From NCBI GenBank assembly GCA_021791895.1, contig JAJYVS010000002.1, forward strand, positions 1 to 64,000: a stretch of DNA of 64,000 nucleotides, read 5' to 3'. The notes under the pieces were generated by a model. That model was not told where the DNA came from. It searched no databases and saw only the letters and a list, made by a program, of their open reading frames with translations. Each line of letters begins with the position of its first letter. Position 1 is the stretch's first letter. Made by a program: the position numbers and the translations under genes. This DNA is from Actinomycetes bacterium. GTDB lineage: Bacteria; Actinomycetota; Acidimicrobiia; Acidimicrobiales; RAAP-2. Below are positions 22,183-39,469 of the stretch, in pieces.

Positions 22183-24933
22183 ATGGCGGACCGGCTGCGC
22201 TTTGACCGCGTGGCCTGGGGGTCACACTGCGTGGACTGTTACCCGGGGGCCTGCCCGTACCGGGTGTACGTGCGTGACGGCCAGGTTCTTCGCGAGGAAG
22301 TGGCGGGCACCATGGTTCCCTTCGAAGAGGGTGTCCCGGACATGAACCCCCTCGGCTGCCAGAAGGGCGCGGCCTGGTCCCAACAGCTCGACGGAGCGGA
22401 CCGCCCCCTGTATCCGATGCGCAGGGTGGGCGAACGAGGCTCGGGGCGCTGGGAACGGATCACGTGGGACGACGCTCTCATCGCCGTCGCCGACGCCATC
22501 ATCGACACCCTCGAAGAGGAAGGCAGCGAGGCCATCGTCCACGAGGGTTCTCCCGAGGTCGTGGCGGTGCCGGCCGTTCATCGCTTCATGAACCTGCTCG
22601 GCGGGATCGTTACCGACATCAATGGATCGATCAACGATCTGGCGATTGGTCACCACCTGACCTTCGGACGCTTCTACCCCATCTACTCGAACGACGACAT
22701 CTTCCACTCGGAGTTGGTGATCCTGTGGAACACCAACCCGGCGTACACCGCCATCCCCTTCTTCCACTACATGGCCGAAATGCGTTACCACGGTGGGGAG
22801 GTCGTGCTGCTCTCGCCGGACGTCTCTCCCACCCACTCCCACGTCGACTACCACGTCCCGCTCGAATGGGGGGCTGATCCCGCCTTGGCACTGTCCATGT
22901 GCCAAGTGGTCGTGGAAGAAGGCCTCGTGGACGAGTCCTTCGTCTCGACCCAGACCGACCTGCCCCTCTTGGTACGCAGCGACACGGGCCGGTTCCTGCG
23001 CCAGAACGACCTCGTGGCCGGAGGTTCCGACGACGTCTTCTACCACCTGAGAGCCGACGGTGAACTGGTCGCGGCCAGCCGGACCGAGCTCTTGCTCGAC
23101 TTCTCCCCCGCCCTGTCGGGCTCGGCGACGGTGGCGTTGGTCGAAGGAGGAGAGGTTCGGGTCCGCCCGCTCATGGCCCGCCTCACCGAGATGCTCGACG
23201 ACCGCTATCGCCCCGAGCAGACCCAGTCCCGGACCGGGGTGCACCCGGACACGGTGCGGACCCTGGCCCGCAAGGTGGCCACCCGCAGGACCAAGGTGCT
23301 CATGGGGATGGGGGCGTGCAAGACCTACCACTCCGACCTGTACCAGCGCACCATGAACCTGTTGTTGGCACTGACGGGGAACTGGGGTCGGAAGGGAACC
23401 GGGATCAACTGCTGGGCCGTCGGACTCTTCGACGGCCAGACGACCGCCCTGGCCAAGCAGCGGGTCGGGGTCGAAGGTGCCGAGGCGGTGCTCGCCGGTC
23501 TCACCGCATTGGAGGCCGGCATTCGTTCCGAAGACCCCAGCCTCGACGACACCTTGGCCAGCATCGAGCTCACGCGACGCATGGCGGGCGGCGGCGGGCG
23601 CGCCATGTTCCCCGCCTTCTTCCTCTGGTACTGGCATGGAGGGTTCCAGGGGCGCTGGAACAATCGGTCTTGGAACGACCCCGCCATGGCCCGCTCCTTC
23701 GAGGACTACTTCGACGAAGCCGTCAGCGCTGGGTGGTGGAAGGGCCTAGAGAAGCCCGGCCCGGAAGTGACGCCCCGGGTGATGATCGAATGCGGCGGCA
23801 ACCAGCTGCGGCGAACCCGAGGCGGCCAAGGGGCCCTGCTCGACTCGTTGTGGTCGCAGCTACGGCTCGTGGTGACCGTCGACGTCCGGATGTCCGTGAC
23901 GGCATTGCACTCCGACATCGTCCTGCCCGCCGCCCATCACTACGAGAAGGTCGCCTTCCATCTCCCGAGCCCCTCCATGCTGACGCTCACCCTCTGCGAC
24001 AAGGCGGTCGAGCCTCCGGGTGAGGCCAAGGAGGAGTGGGAGATCTTCTCGCTCCTGTGCCGGGTCCTGGCCGATCGGGCGGCGGCGCGGGGCATCGAGA
24101 CATTCTCGGTGGGGGGCGAGGGCGAGGTGCTGGCCGACCCGGTCCGCCGCTACGACGACCTCTGGGAGAAATTCACCCTCGGCGGCCGACTTCTCAATAC
24201 CGAGGACGTCGGGGACGAGATGGTCCGCGACACCACCTACGCCGGCACGCTGCCCGAGGGGACCACGCTGCAAACCCTGCGAGAGCAGGGATGGATCCGG
24301 TTCATCGGTTGGGGCTCCTCCCCCATGGCCAAGGGGCAATCCTCCCCATGGCCCGAACGCGAAACCCACGTGCCGTTCCGCGACCACGTGGAGCGGGGAA
24401 CTCCCTATCCGACCCTCACGCGCCGGGCGCAGTTCCTCATCGAGCACCCCTGGTTCGTCGAGGCCGGGGAAGACCTCCCGGTGCACAAGGAACCTCCGAA
24501 GATGGGCGGGGACTACCCGTTCAAGATGACCGGTGGTCACAACCGCTGGTCCATCCACGCCATGAACATGGGTAACCCGGTGCTGCTCCAGACCCATCGG
24601 GGGGAGCCTCACGCGGTCATGAACCCCGATGACGCCGCGCGCCTCGGCATCGAGGACGGCGACCTGGCGAGGGTGTTCAACGACGTCGGTGACTTCAAGG
24701 TCAGGGTGAAGACGTCATCGGGACAGCGTCCCTTCGGACTGTCGGTGTACAACGGCTGGGAAGGCCACATGTTCCGCGGGGGGCGGGGCTCCAACGAAGT
24801 GGAGCCCGGCATGGTCAAGTGGCTTCAGATGGCGGGCGGCTACGGCCATTTGCGCTACGCGCCGATGGAGTGGCAGCCGGTTCCGGTGGACCGACCGATC
24901 TTCGTCGACATCGCCCGGGAAGAGGTCTTCTGA
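22183..24933 (+). CDS. Molybdopterin oxidoreductase, class II DMSO-reductase-like catalytic subunit
   Basis: HCVDCYPGACPYRVYVRDGQVLREE, VPDMNPLGCQKGAAWSQ, LWNTNPAYTAIPFFHYMAEMRYHGGEVVLLSPD, QTDLPLLVRSDTGRFLRQNDL, GGHNRWSIHAMNMG, LQMAGGYGHLR. Longer GTG start at 22159 possible. Confidence 0.92.
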   Translation: MADRLRFDRVAWGSHCVDCYPGACPYRVYVRDGQVLREEVAGTMVPFEEGVPDMNPLGCQKGAAWSQQLDGADRPLYPMRRVGERGSGRWERITWDDALIAVADAIIDTLEEEGSEAIVHEGSPEVVAVPAVHRFMNLLGGIVTDINGSINDLAIGHHLTFGRFYPIYSNDDIFHSELVILWNTNPAYTAIPFFHYMAEMRYHGGEVVLLSPDVSPTHSHVDYHVPLEWGADPALALSMCQVVVEEGLVDESFVSTQTDLPLLVRSDTGRFLRQNDLVAGGSDDVFYHLRADGELVAASRTELLLDFSPALSGSATVALVEGGEVRVRPLMARLTEMLDDRYRPEQTQSRTGVHPDTVRTLARKVATRRTKVLMGMGACKTYHSDLYQRTMNLLLALTGNWGRKGTGINCWAVGLFDGQTTALAKQRVGVEGAEAVLAGLTALEAGIRSEDPSLDDTLASIELTRRMAGGGGRAMFPAFFLWYWHGGFQGRWNNRSWNDPAMARSFEDYFDEAVSAGWWKGLEKPGPEVTPRVMIECGGNQLRRTRGGQGALLDSLWSQLRLVVTVDVRMSVTALHSDIVLPAAHHYEKVAFHLPSPSMLTLTLCDKAVEPPGEAKEEWEIFSLLCRVLADRAAARGIETFSVGGEGEVLADPVRRYDDLWEKFTLGGRLLNTEDVGDEMVRDTTYAGTLPEGTTLQTLREQGWIRFIGWGSSPMAKGQSSPWPERETHVPFRDHVERGTPYPTLTRRAQFLIEHPWFVEAGEDLPVHKEPPKMGGDYPFKMTGGHNRWSIHAMNMGNPVLLQTHRGEPHAVMNPDDAARLGIEDGDLARVFNDVGDFKVRVKTSSGQRPFGLSVYNGWEGHMFRGGRGSNEVEPGMVKWLQMAGGYGHLRYAPMEWQPVPVDRPIFVDIAREEVF

Positions 24934-26243
24934 TGCGCGACGTCTACGTCCTGGCTGTTGGGATGACGACGTTCGGCAAGTATCCAGAGCTCGGGATCAA
25001 GGAGCTCAGCGCCCGAGCGGTGACCGAGGTCCTGGTTGATGCGGCGTTGGACCCCACCGCCATCGAGGCGGCCTGGTTCGCCAACGCCGGTTGGGGGATG
25101 GCAACGGGCCAGCACTGCATCCGCGGTCAAGTGGCCCTCGCTCCCCTCGGCATCGAGGAGATCCCGGTGATGAACGTGGAGAACGCGTGCGCCGGTGGGT
25201 CGTCGGCCTTCCACGGCGCCTTTCTCGGAATCGCCGCCGGCGCCTACGACGTGGCGCTCGCCGTCGGTGCCGAGAAGTCATTCGTACCGGCGGGCGGCGA
25301 CCCCGAGGCGCGTCGACGGGGGTTCGAGAGCTTCATCGCTGGCACCGACGTCGAGGTCACACAGGCCTTTCTCGAACGGATCAGGGCCGAGGCCGAGCAA
25401 CGCCGGGCCGATCTCGAGGCCCGCGGCGAGGTGAAGAAGGGTGGAGGCGAGGCACGCAGCCCGTTCATGGACCTCTACTCCATGGCTGCCCGGGGCCACA
25501 TCGAGCGCTACGGGACCACGCAGCGCCAGCTGGCCGTCATCGCCGCCAAGAACCACCGCCACGGTGCCCTCAACCCCCACGCCCAGTACCGCATGGCCAT
25601 GACGGCCGACGAGGTGCTCGACGACCGCCTCGTCTCCTGGCCTCTCACGAGGTCCATGTGTGCGCCCACCGGCGACGGTGCCGCTGCGGCGGTCCTGGTG
25701 GCCGGCGACCGGCTGGCTCCACTCGATCGCTCCCGAGCCGTTCGGGTCCGAGCGTCGGTGCTGGCCTCGGGGCGCCTTTCGGCCGGCGGCGGGCACCTGG
25801 TTCCACCGGCACAGCGTGCCTACGAAGCCGCGGGCGTGGATCCCGATGACGTGGACGTGGCCGAGGTCCACGACGCCACGGCCTTCGGAGAGCTGGCCCA
25901 GACCGAACGCCTCGGTTTCTGCGCCGAGGGACAGGGCGGCCCGTACGCCGAGTCGGGCGCCACCTCGCTCGGGGGTGCCCGCCCGGTCAACCCGAGCGGC
26001 GGGCTCGAGTGCCGTGGACACCCGATCGCCGCCACCGGCCTGGCCCAGATCACCGAGATCGTGACCCAGCTGCGGGGCGAGGCAGGCGATCGCCAAGTCC
26101 CCGGAGCCCGTCTCGGTCTGATCGAGAACGGCGGCGGGTTCATCGGCACCGGTGAGGCCGCCGTCTCCATCCACGTCCTCGAGGCCCCGCCCGGCCGATC
26201 GGGCCCACGGTCCGCTCGGCCGGTAGCGGGCGACCACCGATGA
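24933..26243 (+). CDS. Thiolase / SCP-x-type acetyl-CoA acyltransferase
   Basis: VMNVENACAGGSSAFHGAFLGIAAGAYDVALAVG (active-site Cys), VAEVHDATAFGEL, NPSGGLECRGHPIAATGLAQITEI. ATG overlaps the TGA of the preceding gene. Confidence 0.92.
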   Translation: MRDVYVLAVGMTTFGKYPELGIKELSARAVTEVLVDAALDPTAIEAAWFANAGWGMATGQHCIRGQVALAPLGIEEIPVMNVENACAGGSSAFHGAFLGIAAGAYDVALAVGAEKSFVPAGGDPEARRRGFESFIAGTDVEVTQAFLERIRAEAEQRRADLEARGEVKKGGGEARSPFMDLYSMAARGHIERYGTTQRQLAVIAAKNHRHGALNPHAQYRMAMTADEVLDDRLVSWPLTRSMCAPTGDGAAAAVLVAGDRLAPLDRSRAVRVRASVLASGRLSAGGGHLVPPAQRAYEAAGVDPDDVDVAEVHDATAFGELAQTERLGFCAEGQGGPYAESGATSLGGARPVNPSGGLECRGHPIAATGLAQITEIVTQLRGEAGDRQVPGARLGLIENGGGFIGTGEAAVSIHVLEAPPGRSGPRSARPVAGDHR

Positions 26244-27838
26244 CCGCCGAGCCCACGACCCTCGGGGAACTCGTCCGAGCCCAGTCCGACCGGTTCGGGC
26301 ACGCGCCGTTCCTCTTCTTCGGGGACCGCACCCTGTCCTTCGCCGACCTCGACGATCAGGTCGAACGGGTCGCCCGCGGCCTGGCCGAGCTCGGAGCCGG
26401 TCCGGGCACGGGGGTAGCCGTCCTCATGCCGAACTCGCCGGAGTGGCTCATTGCCTTCTTCGCCGTCCAACGCCTGGGCGCCTACACGGTCCCGGTCAAC
26501 GTCGCGCTCAAGGGTGAGGGCCTTCGGCACGTGATCGGCCACTCCGACGCCGGGATCCTCGTGACGGCGGCGGAGTACGCCGAGGCGGTCCAGGCCGTGA
26601 CGCCCGGGTTGCCCGGCCTGCACCGGGTGGTGGTGGACGAGCAGCAGGCCTCCGCCGACTGGCGGCGTCCGTCCGGGTGGATCGCCCTCGGTGAGCTCGA
26701 AGGGATGGCACCGGGTCCGATCACTCGCCGCACCGCCGTCACCGGAGGGATCAGCACGATCATGTACACCTCGGGCACCACCGGCGCCCCCAAGGGTGTG
26801 GTCAGCCGCTACGGCGGGCTGAACCTATCGGGCATGCGGATGCTGGCGGGCGGGCTCCAAGCCGACGACGTGCTGTACACCTGTCTGCCCCTGTTCCATG
26901 CCAACGCCCTGCTGCTCACCACGGCGCGGGCCCTGGCGGCAGGGCGCCCGATGGCACTGGCCCGACGTTTCTCGGCGAGCCGGCTCTGGGAGGACACCCG
27001 CCGCTACGGCGTGACCACCTTCAATGCCCTGGGGGCGATGGTCCCGATCCTCGTCAAACAGCCCGAACGGCCCGACGACGCCGACAATCCGGTGCGGACC
27101 GTGTTCAGCGCCGCGTGTCCGGCTTCGGTGTGGGCCGAGTTCGAACGTCGCTTCGACGTGCGGATCATCGAGGGCTATGCGGCCGTCGACGGCGGCGGCT
27201 ACATGACCATCAACTTCGGACAGTCCCCGCCGGGGTCGATCGGCAAGGCGCCGGGTGGTTGGCGAATCGTCGATGACGACGGTCGTGACGTCGCCGTCGG
27301 GGAGACCGGCGAGCTCCTCTTCGAGGTGGACGACCCAACCCGGCGCAAGGTCGAGTACTACAAGAACGAGGCCGCCGGATCGGCCCGGATCGACGGAGGA
27401 TGGTTCCGGACCGGCGACCTCATGCGCTCCGACGCCGAGGGCAACCTGTACTTCGTCGACCGGAAGACGGACTCGCTGCGACGACGGGGCGAGAACATCT
27501 CCTCCTGGGAGGTCGAACGGGAGCTCGACCGCCATCCGGCCCTGCTCGAGTCCGCCGTCTTCGGCGTGCCCTCCGAACTCGGAGAGGACGAGGTCATGGC
27601 GGTCGTCGTGGTCAAGGAGGGCTGCCAGGTCACCCCGGAGGAGCTCGTGGCCTTCGCCGAGGAGCGAATGGCCGCCTTCATGGTGCCGCGGTTCATCGAG
27701 TTCAGGGAATCACTCCCGAAGACCGAGACCCACCGGACCCGCAAGGGCGAGCTCAAGCGCCAGGGAGTCGGGCCGGCCACTTGGGACCGCCAGGCGAGCC
27801 CGTCCCGGGCGGACCGGGGGAATCCGCGAGCCGGATAG
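26240..27838 (+). CDS. AMP-dependent acyl-CoA synthetase/ligase
   Basis: MYTSGTTGAPKGVVSRYGG, GWFRTGDLMRSDAEGNLYFVDRKTDSLRRRGENISSWEVE. Confidence 0.94.
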   Translation: MTAEPTTLGELVRAQSDRFGHAPFLFFGDRTLSFADLDDQVERVARGLAELGAGPGTGVAVLMPNSPEWLIAFFAVQRLGAYTVPVNVALKGEGLRHVIGHSDAGILVTAAEYAEAVQAVTPGLPGLHRVVVDEQQASADWRRPSGWIALGELEGMAPGPITRRTAVTGGISTIMYTSGTTGAPKGVVSRYGGLNLSGMRMLAGGLQADDVLYTCLPLFHANALLLTTARALAAGRPMALARRFSASRLWEDTRRYGVTTFNALGAMVPILVKQPERPDDADNPVRTVFSAACPASVWAEFERRFDVRIIEGYAAVDGGGYMTINFGQSPPGSIGKAPGGWRIVDDDGRDVAVGETGELLFEVDDPTRRKVEYYKNEAAGSARIDGGWFRTGDLMRSDAEGNLYFVDRKTDSLRRRGENISSWEVERELDRHPALLESAVFGVPSELGEDEVMAVVVVKEGCQVTPEELVAFAEERMAAFMVPRFIEFRESLPKTETHRTRKGELKRQGVGPATWDRQASPSRADRGNPRAG

Positions 27839-27860
27839 GGACGACAGGAGGGAGCATTCG

Positions 27861-28670
27861 ATGGAGCTGAAAGAGGTCGTCGGCCGGAGGCGCAGCATTC
27901 GCTTCTACCTCCCTCACAAGCCGGTCGAACGGGCCAAGATCCAAAAGATGTTGCACGCCGCCCAGCGGGCCTCGTGCGTCGGCAACGTGAACAACACCAG
28001 TGCCGTCGTCATCTGGCGCGACGAGGCGTCTGCCGAGCTCCTGAAGCGCATCACCCCCCCGCTCGGTTACCAGCAGATGCAGACGGCGCCGGTCTTCATC
28101 CTCTGGTACGCCGACACTGACGCCTACGAGATCGAGCGTTGGACGGGACACCTGCTCGACCTGGCGGACCAGCGTCGGATCGGCGTCGATGTCGAGGAGA
28201 CCAAGACACAGATCAACGACGTGTTGAAGCCGGTCTTTGGGTCGATGTGGAAGGACATGGCCGTATCCCCGCTCGCCTTCATGGACGTCGGCCAGGCCGT
28301 GGCCCAGGCCACCCTGGTCGCCTATGACGAAGGCCTGGGTACCTGCTGCATGTCGAGTCCGCGTCTCGAACAGGTGGCGAATCTGCTCGACCTGCCCGAC
28401 ACGGCGGTGCCGATCTGCCTGCAGTCGGTCGGCTACCCGGCCGAGTCGTGGGAGGCCGGGGGCCAGACCCGCAAGGCCCCCTTTGAACAGCTGTTCCACG
28501 AGGGGCGTCATGGACGGCCGTTCCTGCCCGACCCCGAGGTCGAGGAGCAGCTGCGGACCGAGAAGCTGCTCCAGCGAGAGGCTCCTCTACCCGATCGGGA
28601 CGACGAACTGCGCTACGTCGTGCGTGCCCTCGGGCTGGAGGGTGAATTCGTCCACTTCGACCGATCCTGA
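27861..28670 (+). CDS. Nitroreductase-family flavoprotein
   Basis: ELKEVVGRRRSIRFYLPHKPVERAKIQKMLHAAQRA..., DVGQAVAQATLVAYDEGLGTCCM, CLQSVGYPAE. Confidence 0.85.
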   Translation: MELKEVVGRRRSIRFYLPHKPVERAKIQKMLHAAQRASCVGNVNNTSAVVIWRDEASAELLKRITPPLGYQQMQTAPVFILWYADTDAYEIERWTGHLLDLADQRRIGVDVEETKTQINDVLKPVFGSMWKDMAVSPLAFMDVGQAVAQATLVAYDEGLGTCCMSSPRLEQVANLLDLPDTAVPICLQSVGYPAESWEAGGQTRKAPFEQLFHEGRHGRPFLPDPEVEEQLRTEKLLQREAPLPDRDDELRYVVRALGLEGEFVHFDRS

Positions 28671-28690
28671 TCCGAGAGGGGGCCAGGCCC

Positions 28691-29893
28691 ATGACGACGA
28701 TCGAGTTCGAGACGTCCCTCAGCGACGAAGAGGCCGCGGTGCGCGACACCGCGCACCGATTTGCCGAAGAGGTGCTGCGACCGGTCGGGAGGGCCCTCGA
28801 CAAGATGCCGGACCCCGAAGCCGTCGTGGCCCCGGACTCCCCGCTCTGGGACGTCTTCGCCCGCTACCGCAAGCTCGGGGTTCGCGACCTCGACGACACG
28901 CAATCCGCGCTCGAACCGAGCGATCGGGCCCGGGTGCAGTCGCTCGTGTCAGAGGAGATGGGCTGGGGGGACGCCGGTCTCGCCATCAGTCTCGGGGTCT
29001 CGCAGTTTCCCCGCACACTGGCTCGGTTGTCGGGCAACCCCGAGCTGATCGAGCGCTTCGGTGGCGACGAGGTGATCGGCTGTTGGCCGATCACCGAGCC
29101 CGATCACGGGAGTGACCAGCTGATTTACGCCGGCCGCATGCACGAGATGCCGGGGAGGCCGAACTGCGTCGCGCGACGTGACGGCGGCGACTACGTCATC
29201 GAAGGCCAGAAATCGGCATGGGTGTCCAACGGCACCATCGCCACCGCTGCCGCCCTCTTCTGCGCGGTGCAGGACTCCGACGGCAGGATCAGCGGGCCGG
29301 CCGCGTTCCTCGTTCCGCTCGAAGAGCCCGGGGTTCGACGGGGAGCCCCGCTCGACAAGATCGGCCAGCGAGCGCTCAACCAGGGGGAGATCTTCTTCGA
29401 CCAGGTTCGGATCCCGGCGTCGTACCTCGTGCTCCCACCCGAGCTCGGGCCCTGGAGCGCCGACTCGGTCCTGGCCAATGCGAACGCTGGGATGGGCGCG
29501 ACCTTCGTCGGTGTGGCACGCGCGGCGCTCGAGATGGCGGTCGAGTACGCCAAGGAGCGGGTCCAGGGTGGCACCGCGATCATCGGGCACCAGAGCGTGC
29601 GCGCCCGCCTCTTCCGCATGTACCGACTCACCCAGGCGGCGCGGGCACTCAGCCGCCATACCCTCGTTCACAACAGCGCCACGATGCCTGCGGACATCGC
29701 ACTGGCCATCGCCTCGAAGGTCACGGCGACCGAGACGGCTTTCGAGGTGGCGAGCATGGCGCTCCAGATCTTCGGGGGCAACGGTCTGACCCGGGCCTAT
29801 CCCGTGGAGAAATTGCTGCGGGATGCCCGCGCTTCGATGATCGAAGACGGGTGCAACGAGGTGCTCGGAATCATGGCCGCCGGGCGCCTCTGA
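28691..29893 (+). CDS. Acyl-CoA dehydrogenase
   Basis: WPITEPDHGSDQL, GQKSAWVSNG, VRARLFRMYRLTQAARAL, QIFGGNGLTRAYPVEKLLRDARASMIEDGCNEVL. Confidence 0.94.
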   Translation: MTTIEFETSLSDEEAAVRDTAHRFAEEVLRPVGRALDKMPDPEAVVAPDSPLWDVFARYRKLGVRDLDDTQSALEPSDRARVQSLVSEEMGWGDAGLAISLGVSQFPRTLARLSGNPELIERFGGDEVIGCWPITEPDHGSDQLIYAGRMHEMPGRPNCVARRDGGDYVIEGQKSAWVSNGTIATAAALFCAVQDSDGRISGPAAFLVPLEEPGVRRGAPLDKIGQRALNQGEIFFDQVRIPASYLVLPPELGPWSADSVLANANAGMGATFVGVARAALEMAVEYAKERVQGGTAIIGHQSVRARLFRMYRLTQAARALSRHTLVHNSATMPADIALAIASKVTATETAFEVASMALQIFGGNGLTRAYPVEKLLRDARASMIEDGCNEVLGIMAAGRL

Positions 29894-30925: not shown

Positions 30926-32050
30926 GTGCCTCCCGAGAAGCTCCATTGGGCCCACCTGTACGAAGAAGTGGTCACCTCAGGCCTGTGCACCGGGTGCTCG
31001 GCCTGCATCGTGGTGTGCCCCTACGACGTGCTCGAGTACGACGACCAGGACGGTCACTACAAGCCGTTCCACGTCGCCGAGGAGGGTGGGACCGACGACT
31101 GCACCCACGGGGTCAAGGGCTGCACGCTGTGCACTCGGGCCTGCCCCCGATTCCGGGACTGGGAGACCGAGATCGACCACTACCTGTTCGGACGGGACCG
31201 AACCGAAGACGAGGTGTCCGGGATCACCTCCGAGGTCGTGTTGGCCCGGGCCACCGATCCCGACCTGCTCGAGGCCGGCCAGGACGGTGGGTTCGTCTCA
31301 GCCCTGCTCCTCTGGGCCCTCGAGCACGACGAGATCGATGCCGCCCTCGTGTCGGACCTCGAGGGCGACGGCACCAGCTGGCGGGCGGTCCCGGCTGTCG
31401 CCCGCACCAGGGAGGAGATCTTGAAGACTGCGGGCTCTCGCTACACCTACTGCGCCAACCCGATGGCCTACGCAGAGGCGACCGGGAGCGGGGCCGAACG
31501 GCTCGCCCTCGTGGGCATGGGCTGCCAGACGTCGGCCACGGCGGTGATGTCGGCCCGCAAGGCCGGCAAGGTCGCTAGGAGGTTCAGCCTGTCGATCGGG
31601 CTCTTGTGCTCGAAGACCTTCGACGACGCCATCTTCTCCGAGCTCTTCGAGGCTCGCTACAACCTGGCACGCGAGCAGATCAAGAAGATGAACATCAAGG
31701 GCGTCTTCCAGCTTTGGATGCAAGACGGCTCCTATCACGAGGTGCCGCTCAAGGAGGCCCATGGGTGGACCCGCGAGGGCTGCAAAGCCTGCCCGGACTT
31801 CGCGGCCGAGCACGCCGACATCTCGACCGGCGGGATCGGGGCGTTCAACGACTGGACCCTCGTCCTCGTCCGCACCGAACGGGGACGGGAGATCTTCGAC
31901 GCCATGGTCAAAGACGGGGCGGTCGAGCTGCGCCCGATCGACGAAGACCCCGGCGCGGTCTCCCTTCTGCGCCGCCTCTCCACCGTCAGCCGGAAGCGCT
32001 GGCCGACAACCGCGGTCCCGATGCCGGGGCGTATCCCGGTCCGCGCCTAG
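30926..32050 (+). CDS. F420 hydrogenase/dehydrogenase beta-subunit (FrhB)-like protein with ferredoxin-type Cys motifs, GTG start
   Basis: CTGCSACIVVCPYDVLEY, CTLCTRACPRF, DGGFVSALLLWALEHDEIDAALV, GMGCQTSATAVM, GLLCSKTFD, CKACPDFAAEHADISTGGIG. Confidence 0.9.
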   Translation: MPPEKLHWAHLYEEVVTSGLCTGCSACIVVCPYDVLEYDDQDGHYKPFHVAEEGGTDDCTHGVKGCTLCTRACPRFRDWETEIDHYLFGRDRTEDEVSGITSEVVLARATDPDLLEAGQDGGFVSALLLWALEHDEIDAALVSDLEGDGTSWRAVPAVARTREEILKTAGSRYTYCANPMAYAEATGSGAERLALVGMGCQTSATAVMSARKAGKVARRFSLSIGLLCSKTFDDAIFSELFEARYNLAREQIKKMNIKGVFQLWMQDGSYHEVPLKEAHGWTREGCKACPDFAAEHADISTGGIGAFNDWTLVLVRTERGREIFDAMVKDGAVELRPIDEDPGAVSLLRRLSTVSRKRWPTTAVPMPGRIPVRA

Positions 32051-37730: not shown

Positions 37731-38693
37731 TCAGCGGCTCTTCAACGCCTCGATCAGGGCCGGCAGCACCTTGTGCACGTCGCCGACGATGCCGAGGTCG
37801 GCGACCGAGAAGATCGGTGCGTCCTGGTCCTTGTTGACCGCGACGATGTGCTTGGACCCTTTCATGCCCACCAGGTGCTGCGTGGCGCCCGAGATGCCGC
37901 AGGCGAGGTAGAGGTTCGGCTTGACGGTCTTGCCGGTCTGGCCGACCTGACGGGCGTAGGGGACCCATCCGGCGTCCACGATGGCCCGGCTGGCCCCCGG
38001 CGCGCCGTTGAGCAGCTTGGCCAGCTGCTCGATCAGCTCGTAGCTGTCGGCCGAGCCGAGCCCCCGGCCGCCGGAGACGACGACGCCGGCCTCGTCGAGC
38101 TTGGGTCCACTGCGCTCCTCCACGTGGCGGGAGACGACCCGGGCGGCCGCGGTCGGCCCCGCCTCGGGCGCGGCCGTCTGGACCACCTCGGCGGGGCCAC
38201 CGCCGGCGGATTCGGCGGCGAAGGACTTCGCCCGGACCACGTAGAGGAAGGGGCCCTCGCCGGTGAACCGGGCGGTCGCGGTCTGGGAGCCTCCGAACAA
38301 GGAGTGCTGCGTGCTCAGGCCGTCGTCGCTCATCCCGACGATGTTGGTGATGACCGGGCGGTCCAGCTTGACCGACAGTCGCCCGGCCACGTCCCGTCCG
38401 TCGTAGCTGGCCGGGAAGAGGATGGCGTCGGGCCGTTCACCCCCCTCGACGAGGGCGGCCATGGCGCTCGCGACGGGGGCGCCGGGCAGGGCCTCGCCGG
38501 TGTCGCCGAGGTCGTAGACCTTGGTCGCGCCGTACTCGCCGAGGACCGCGGCGTGCTCGGCGGCACCGCCGCCCCAGGCCACGGCGGTGACGCTGGCGCC
38601 GATGGTTCGTGCCTTGGTCAGGAGTTCCAAGGAGAGCGAGGTGGGCCCGGCCTCACCGGTTTCGGCCAGCACCCAGACGTTGTCGAGCGCCAT
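37731..38693 (-). CDS. etfA: Electron transfer flavoprotein alpha subunit
   Basis: [73 protein letters not shown]. Confidence 0.96.
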
Positions 38694-39469
38694 CAGATGA
38701 CCTTCAGTTCTTCGAGAAAGGCGAGAATCCGCTCGGCCCCGTTGCCCTCGTCGACGACGATCTCGCCGCCCTCGCGGGCCTCGGCGTCGGCGACGTCGGT
38801 GACCTCCTGTCGGGCACCGGCCGAGCCCACCTGACCCCCCTCGATCCCGAGGTCGGCCACGGCGAGCACGTCGACCGGCTTGGACTTGGCCGCCATGATC
38901 CCCTTGAACGACGGATACCGGGGCTCGACCACCCCGGCGGTCACGCTCACCACCGCCGGGAGCGGGCACTCGACCTCGTCGAAGCCGGCCTCGGTCTGGC
39001 GCTCGACCCGCACCGTCGACCCGTCGACGGCGATCTTCTTGGCGAAGGTGACCGACGGCAGGCCGAGCAGCTCGGCGATCTGGGCCGGGATCGTCCCGGT
39101 GTACCCGTCGGTCGACTCGGTGGCCGTGAGGACCAGGTCGGGCTCCGCCCGGGAGATGGCCGCCGCCAGCACCTTGGCCGTCCCCAACGAGTCGGTCCCC
39201 GAGAGGGCGTCGTCGCTCACGAGGATGGCCCGGGCCGCCCCCATCGCGAGGGCGGTGCGCAGGCCCGAGGTCTCCCCGCCGGGGGCCATGGACACCAGGA
39301 TCACCTCGTCCCCGTCCCCACTGGCCAGTTGGAGACCCATCTCGACCCCGTAGGAATCGGAGTCGTCCAGGATCAGCTTGCCCGATCGGTCCAGGTTGTG
39401 GGTGACCGGGTCCAGCGCCGACGGCGCGGCAGGATCAGGGATCTGTTTGACGCAGACAACGACGTTCAT
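38693..39469 (-). CDS. etfB: Electron transfer flavoprotein beta subunit
   Basis: MNVVVCVKQIPDPAAPSALDP..., DSYGVEMGLQLA, TATESTDGYTGTIPAQIAELLGLPSVTFA. Confidence 0.96.
   Translation of the reverse strand: MNVVVCVKQIPDPAAPSALDPVTHNLDRSGKLILDDSDSYGVEMGLQLASGDGDEVILVSMAPGGETSGLRTALAMGAARAILVSDDALSGTDSLGTAKVLAAAISRAEPDLVLTATESTDGYTGTIPAQIAELLGLPSVTFAKKIAVDGSTVRVERQTEAGFDEVECPLPAVVSVTAGVVEPRYPSFKGIMAAKSKPVDVLAVADLGIEGGQVGSAGARQEVTDVADAEAREGGEIVVDEGNGAERILAFLEELKVI

Follow-up and report, generated by a model that had tools for sequence, protein, structure and literature searches.

Gene content of the locus

The window analysed here, a stretch of 64,000 nucleotides, belongs to contig C92 of an Acidimicrobiales metagenome-assembled genome (MAG) of 2.83 Mb, distributed over 102 contigs and 87.6% complete (G000). 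At its centre of interest are five genes encoded on the same strand:

22183-24933, plus strand: EbdA-like molybdoenzyme alpha subunit (P0001), 916 aa, Tat leader absent
24933-26243, plus strand: SCP2/lipid-transfer-type thiolase, Cys, HD and GHP motifs retained
26240-27838, plus strand: AMP-dependent acyl-CoA ligase, nearest NCBIfam model PRK06155 (under cut-off)
27861-28670, plus strand: nitroreductase-family protein, 269 aa, with homologs that track alpha genes in five genomes
28691-29893, plus strand: acyl-CoA dehydrogenase, 400 aa, Glu retained at the usual catalytic-base motif

Judging from gene spacing, this arrangement appears operon-like. The overlaps announced by the sequence-only reading that preceded this work were recovered exactly, with 1 bp shared between the alpha stop and the thiolase start (TGATG, 24931-24935) and 4 bp between the thiolase stop and the ligase start (ATGA, 26240-26243), and the nitroreductase and acyl-CoA dehydrogenase genes do follow on the same strand, after gaps of 22 and 20 bp, respectively. 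Genes that overlap, or nearly so, offer no sign of separate transcription units at the level of gene arrangement. Scanning for promoters and terminators revealed no promoter-like site and about as many terminator-like sites as shuffled sequence would give, which leaves the transcription unit undefined. The operon lies between a formamidopyrimidine-DNA glycosylase gene on its upstream side and a 5'-3' exonuclease gene on its downstream side, an order shared with the sister genome (G039), and its five genes include neither an alcohol dehydrogenase nor an enoyl-CoA hydratase.

Several features were additionally observed in and around the operon. Around the usual catalytic Lys of the ligase, THR replaces the GK of other ligases, and most of its homologs located beside alpha genes carry THR or TQR at this position. 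Two genes downstream of the operon lies a gene for an FrhB/FpoF-like coenzyme F420 oxidoreductase (30926-32050), and in L091 and L102 the alpha clusters are adjoined by cofD, involved in F420 biosynthesis; a tie between the alpha system and F420 is possible. Genes for EtfAB are found on the minus strand (37731-39469), and their product is a possible acceptor for the acyl-CoA dehydrogenase.

A full-length relative of EbdA

P0001 is a full-length relative of EbdA, the alpha subunit of ethylbenzene dehydrogenase (EBDH), within class II of the DMSO reductase family. EBDH represents a family of periplasmic enzymes with members that carry out oxygen-independent hydroxylation of hydrocarbons. In a sequence search against solved structures, it matched EbdA (2ivf_A) from end to end (residues 6-910; 700.8 bits, E=2.9e-209), far ahead of PcrA (430 bits), NarG (about 148 bits) and formate dehydrogenase H (82 bits), which upholds the class II affiliation initially proposed from motifs. 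Its score against TIGR03479 was 809 bits, under the cut-off of 984.75 bits, and the NCBIfam ebdA cut-off was likewise unreached. The top fold match of its AlphaFold model (mean pLDDT 71) was again 2ivf_A, with a TM-score of 0.89 and 37% identity. The distance between the EbdA and formate dehydrogenase H scores (701 vs 82 bits), together with an Asp at the Mo-ligand position, rules out membership of class I or of the formate dehydrogenases, and P0001 groups next to the EBDH clade.

Alignment with 62 relatives allowed the putative active site to be delineated. D152, the counterpart of EbdA D223 and invariant in 62/62 sequences, is the predicted Mo ligand, while H15, C19, C24 and C59, which align with EbdA H82, C86, C92 and C127 and are conserved across the alignment, are the candidate ligands of the FS0 cluster. 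The equivalent of EbdA Lys450 (K380) is also conserved. By contrast with EbdA, a Ser occupies the His192 position in P0001; this active-site His is missing from S25DH too (PMC6153880), and other residues take its place in Ahy, Cmd and S25d sequences (PMC7803848). In the same alignment, the chlorate reductase subunit ClrA keeps both the Asp and the Lys. Given their presence in ClrA and the loss of His192 from P0001, the retained residues fail to single out hydroxylation, which is nonetheless a plausible chemistry for the window enzyme.

An alternative would be a cytoplasmic enzyme working reductively, drawing electrons from Etf, ferredoxin or a flavoprotein and acting on a pathway intermediate by removing a hydroxyl or reducing some other oxidised group. 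Class II does include the reductases PcrA, ClrA and NarG (PMC10100899), and a cytoplasmic location would fit such a role. However, the nearest relative of P0001 among characterised enzymes is a dehydrogenase that oxidises hydrocarbons, the protein is distant from PcrA and NarG, and the presence of ligase, acyl-CoA dehydrogenase and thiolase genes next to it points to oxidative catabolism; we consider this alternative unlikely.

A Tat-less clade adjoining the EbdA group

The lack of a twin-arginine leader, already noticed from the sequence, was verified: no Tat motif was found in P0001, and its start lies 10 codons past an upstream in-frame stop, an interval in which a leader would not fit. P0001 is apparently cytoplasmic. 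A Tat-type motif was detected in 7/7 proteobacterial and archaeal references (L145, L146, L163-L167; upstream of the called start in L164), and in none of the 50 rows of the P0001 clade, where the Tat scan retrieved just scattered RR pairs.

This clade gathers 35 of the 46 rows of the bootstrap tree, with support of 100/98. Its neighbour is a single Tat-bearing Dehalococcoidia alpha (87/77), followed by the EbdA group (four rows), outside which P0001 falls. A quick tree of 62 rows recovered the same clade with 50 rows. In these trees, which hold no named S25dA, AhyA or CmdA sequence, the position of the Tat-less alphas as a clade adjoining the Tat-bearing EbdA group, not nested in it, is well-supported; the phylogeny of the Mo subunit suggested by the sequence-only reading thus places P0001 beside the EbdA group. 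A second Tat-less group (L091_12709, L036_1910 and L149_6517) was found at a distance from the P0001 clade, and two changes of Tat state would suffice to explain the tree.

Partner subunits and a probable assembly gap

The G000 assembly, window included, yielded neither a gamma gene nor a beta gene of the EBDH-like kind, in agreement with the initial observation that no FeS beta or heme gamma gene adjoins the alpha gene. The best beta match of the genome (120 bits) lies on contig C4, beside a TtrA-like Mo enzyme. The isolation of the alpha gene had led to its description as an orphan, and this part of the claim is not supported by the examination of relatives, in which members of the gamma (PF09459/TIGR03477), beta (TIGR03478) and delta (TIGR03482) families occur, with profile scores under the NCBIfam cut-offs yet at the top of their lists. 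Among named relatives, the Acidimicrobiaceae isolate clean1687 (L029) comes closest by this gene, its alpha being 97% identical. The sister genome carries a 97% alpha ortholog on contig C70 and two gamma-beta pairs on contig C71, one of them accompanied by a delta chaperone gene. More broadly, relatives display a recurrent core, alpha1-gamma-beta-delta-alpha2-F4-F6-F7-F8, with the window-type alpha directly behind it in both copies of G066, and separated from it by one intervening gene in L034. The search for beta and gamma partners was therefore negative in the G000 assembly and positive in the sister species and other relatives, where these genes lie elsewhere in the genome or next to the alpha gene, respectively.

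The architecture of the assembly itself most likely accounts for this discrepancy. Contig C16 of G000 starts inside cofD, followed by genes for an acyl-CoA dehydrogenase, a nitroreductase and a thiolase that are 93-98% identical to those of the sister genome on contig C71, immediately after its second beta gene. Furthermore, alpha fragments are found at the ends of contigs C81 and C89; considered as potential pieces of the window gene, they proved to be alpha1-type paralogs. An assembly gap accounts most simply for the lack of partners, and the alpha1-gamma-beta-delta-alpha2 cluster of G000 most likely falls within it. That the alpha subunit would instead dispense with dedicated beta and gamma subunits, acting by itself or with some generic ferredoxin or flavoprotein, appears quite improbable: the absence of such subunits from the window and the assembly, and the occurrence of orthologs on short contigs devoid of recognised partners (L031, L032), would agree with this scenario, but the two gamma-beta pairs of the sister genome, the probable gap in the corresponding region of G000 and the position of the G066 alphas behind the core all oppose it. 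The window alpha would rather be a member of a multi-alpha system.

Altered gamma subunits and additional core proteins

In EBDH, the heme b of the gamma subunit is ligated by a Met and a Lys (PMC8840923). Our gamma alignment shows a TMG/SMG Met and a GRKS/LKA/IKA Lys kept in 6/6 Tat-bearing references; as judged by alignment rather than by structural coordinates, these are the putative heme b ligands. Of the 12 core-cluster gammas of the relatives, 11 have Gly and one has Ala at the Lys position, and half have exchanged the Met, whereas one gamma of the sister genome retains both residues. Loss of this presumed high-potential heme ligand from many gammas would also suit the reductive alternative. 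The beta subunits retain 15 conserved Cys, which fits the expectation for three [4Fe-4S] clusters and one [3Fe-4S] cluster. As for the other core proteins, F6 and F7 are small membrane proteins with one conserved His in each, and F4 (L030:5990-7537 and homologs) is a strongly conserved protein of ~500 aa with only a sub-threshold nitroreductase match. A MobA-like family (Mo-cofactor guanylyltransferase, from by-eye sequence reading) was also observed near the alpha cluster (L094:19181-19906, L100:1144-1788).

A recurrent CoA-thioester module

The coupling of the molybdoenzyme to a CoA-thioester pathway, central to the sequence-only reading, gained support from the search for conserved neighbourhoods. 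The four CoA-module families recur together next to Tat-less alphas, in varying order, in this genus, L033, G066, G036 and the region shared by G039 C71 and G000 C16, where the set comprises acyl-CoA dehydrogenase, nitroreductase and thiolase. Identity to the window module reaches 65% for the thiolase, 62% for the ligase, 45% for the nitroreductase and 37% for the acyl-CoA dehydrogenase of L033, and 39-50% for G066 and G036. The most compelling indication that the alpha genes act jointly with the CoA genes comes from the nitroreductase homologs, since their match segments in five genomes are confined to alpha neighbourhoods or a matching contig end (13/13): the match on C16 sits at the contig end corresponding to the missing cluster, and those on C83 belong to a short contig starting with delta. 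A functional link between this alpha type and CoA-thioester genes is therefore supported at the level of gene context.

These genes could in principle be functionally unrelated neighbours brought together by chance, as the G066 CoA proteins are not strict orthologs of those of this genus (about 39-47% identical, vs 79% for alpha) and their gene order differs. The recurrence of the same families beside Tat-less alphas in separate contexts, such as L033, and the confinement of the nitroreductase segments render this explanation very improbable.

The surroundings of another alpha1-type copy encode an SDR, two nitroreductases, EtfAB and two OYE/FadH-like reductases, as well as a thiolase in the sister genome. 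The EtfAB and OYE/FadH-like proteins could be invoked in favour of a reductive enzyme. In addition, FadH/OYE- and BaiCD-like reductases near other alphas weakly hint at cyclic substrates, such as a cyclic terpenoid or a steroid-like compound.

Distribution across bacterial lineages

Within its own family, some match to the window alpha was detected in 44 of 151 genomes, many of the matches being distant Mo enzymes, and strong full-length matches were restricted to about a dozen. An even sample of 398 genomes across the phylum provided no strong match besides G000, indicating that the family is rare in the phylum. Beyond it, 10 of 198 Dehalococcoidia genomes had a strong match, and plasmid records yielded distant class II relatives only. 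High paralog numbers were encountered in one Dehalococcoidia MAG (G541; L148, L149, L150, L151, L152), with 16 class II alpha matches, and in the Acidobacteriota MAG ATN3, with 11, counts that binning errors could affect in single MAGs. One of the G541 alphas has as its neighbour a flavoprotein with similarity, under cut-off, to 4-oxocyclohexanecarboxylate 2-dehydrogenase and 3-ketosteroid dehydrogenases. Paralogs of the Tat-less clade are numerous in Acidimicrobiales and Dehalococcoidia, and in one Acidobacteriota MAG.

A putative cytoplasmic system for oxygen-independent oxidation

Altogether, the explanation we favour, and hold to be probable with substantial room for doubt, is a cytoplasmic EBDH-like system for oxygen-independent oxidation, with several alphas, feeding CoA-ester degradation. 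The window alpha would assemble in the cytoplasm with shared beta and gamma subunits, and the complex would oxidise an activated C-H bond with water. By way of the Fe-S clusters of beta, electrons would reach an acceptor distinct from the cytochrome c of the periplasm, a part that may fall to F6 and F7, the small membrane proteins of the core, with nitrate as the final sink via NarG. The NarG of G000 is separate from P0001 and scores over its equivalog cut-off, and its role as electron sink is plausible. The product may first be oxidised to an acid by an enzyme encoded outside the operon; the ligase would then activate this acid, with the acyl-CoA dehydrogenase and the thiolase carrying out its shortening, leaving the nitroreductase-family protein with an accessory redox role. 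Counting against this scheme are the absence of gamma and EBDH-like beta genes from the assembly, the residues shared with ClrA, the lack of alcohol dehydrogenase and enoyl-CoA hydratase genes in the operon, and the THR motif of the ligase, which makes its activity uncertain.

Among known systems, NarGHI is a class II Mo enzyme with an Fe-S beta subunit on the cytoplasmic side, but P0001 matches NarG far more weakly than EbdA. With EbdABC(D) of Aromatoleum aromaticum (2ivf), the system shares a full-length alpha with the Mo-ligand Asp, the His/Cys3 FS0 cluster and the Lys450 equivalent, as well as the gamma, beta and delta families of its relatives. It differs by the missing Tat leader, the Ser in place of His192 and the adjoining CoA-module genes, and, in relatives, by the alpha-gamma-beta-delta order, the several alphas per genome and the frequent loss of the conserved gamma Lys. 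The steroid C25/C26 dehydrogenases of Sterolibacterium denitrificans similarly comprise several alpha paralogs with fewer beta and gamma genes, for which sharing was proposed (PMC6016249), and lack the active-site His (PMC6153880), but have Tat leaders and a periplasmic assignment (PMC7411048). By published description, AhyABC, the alkane C2-methylene hydroxylase of Desulfococcus oleovorans, is also EBDH-like, with the Asp kept and His192 replaced (PMC7803848). A published listing places the characterised EBDH, S25DH and p-cymene dehydrogenase enzymes in the periplasm (PMC10100899), and substrate oxidation by EBDH uses cytochrome c or high-potential acceptors (PMC8840923).

A cytoplasmic EBDH-like branch was undescribed in the literature searched, most subscription journals lying outside its coverage. 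We regard as evenly balanced the broader proposal that such a branch is common to uncultured Acidimicrobiales, Dehalococcoidia and Acidobacteriota, combining few gamma-beta-delta sets per several alphas, a largely lost heme b ligation in gamma, a different electron acceptor and alphas feeding their own CoA-degradation modules. If true, this large, many-alpha branch would widen the places where oxygen-independent C-H oxidation is to be expected and would imply a new electron route, and the alpha clade, together with its nitroreductase partner, would provide marker genes for finding such pathways.
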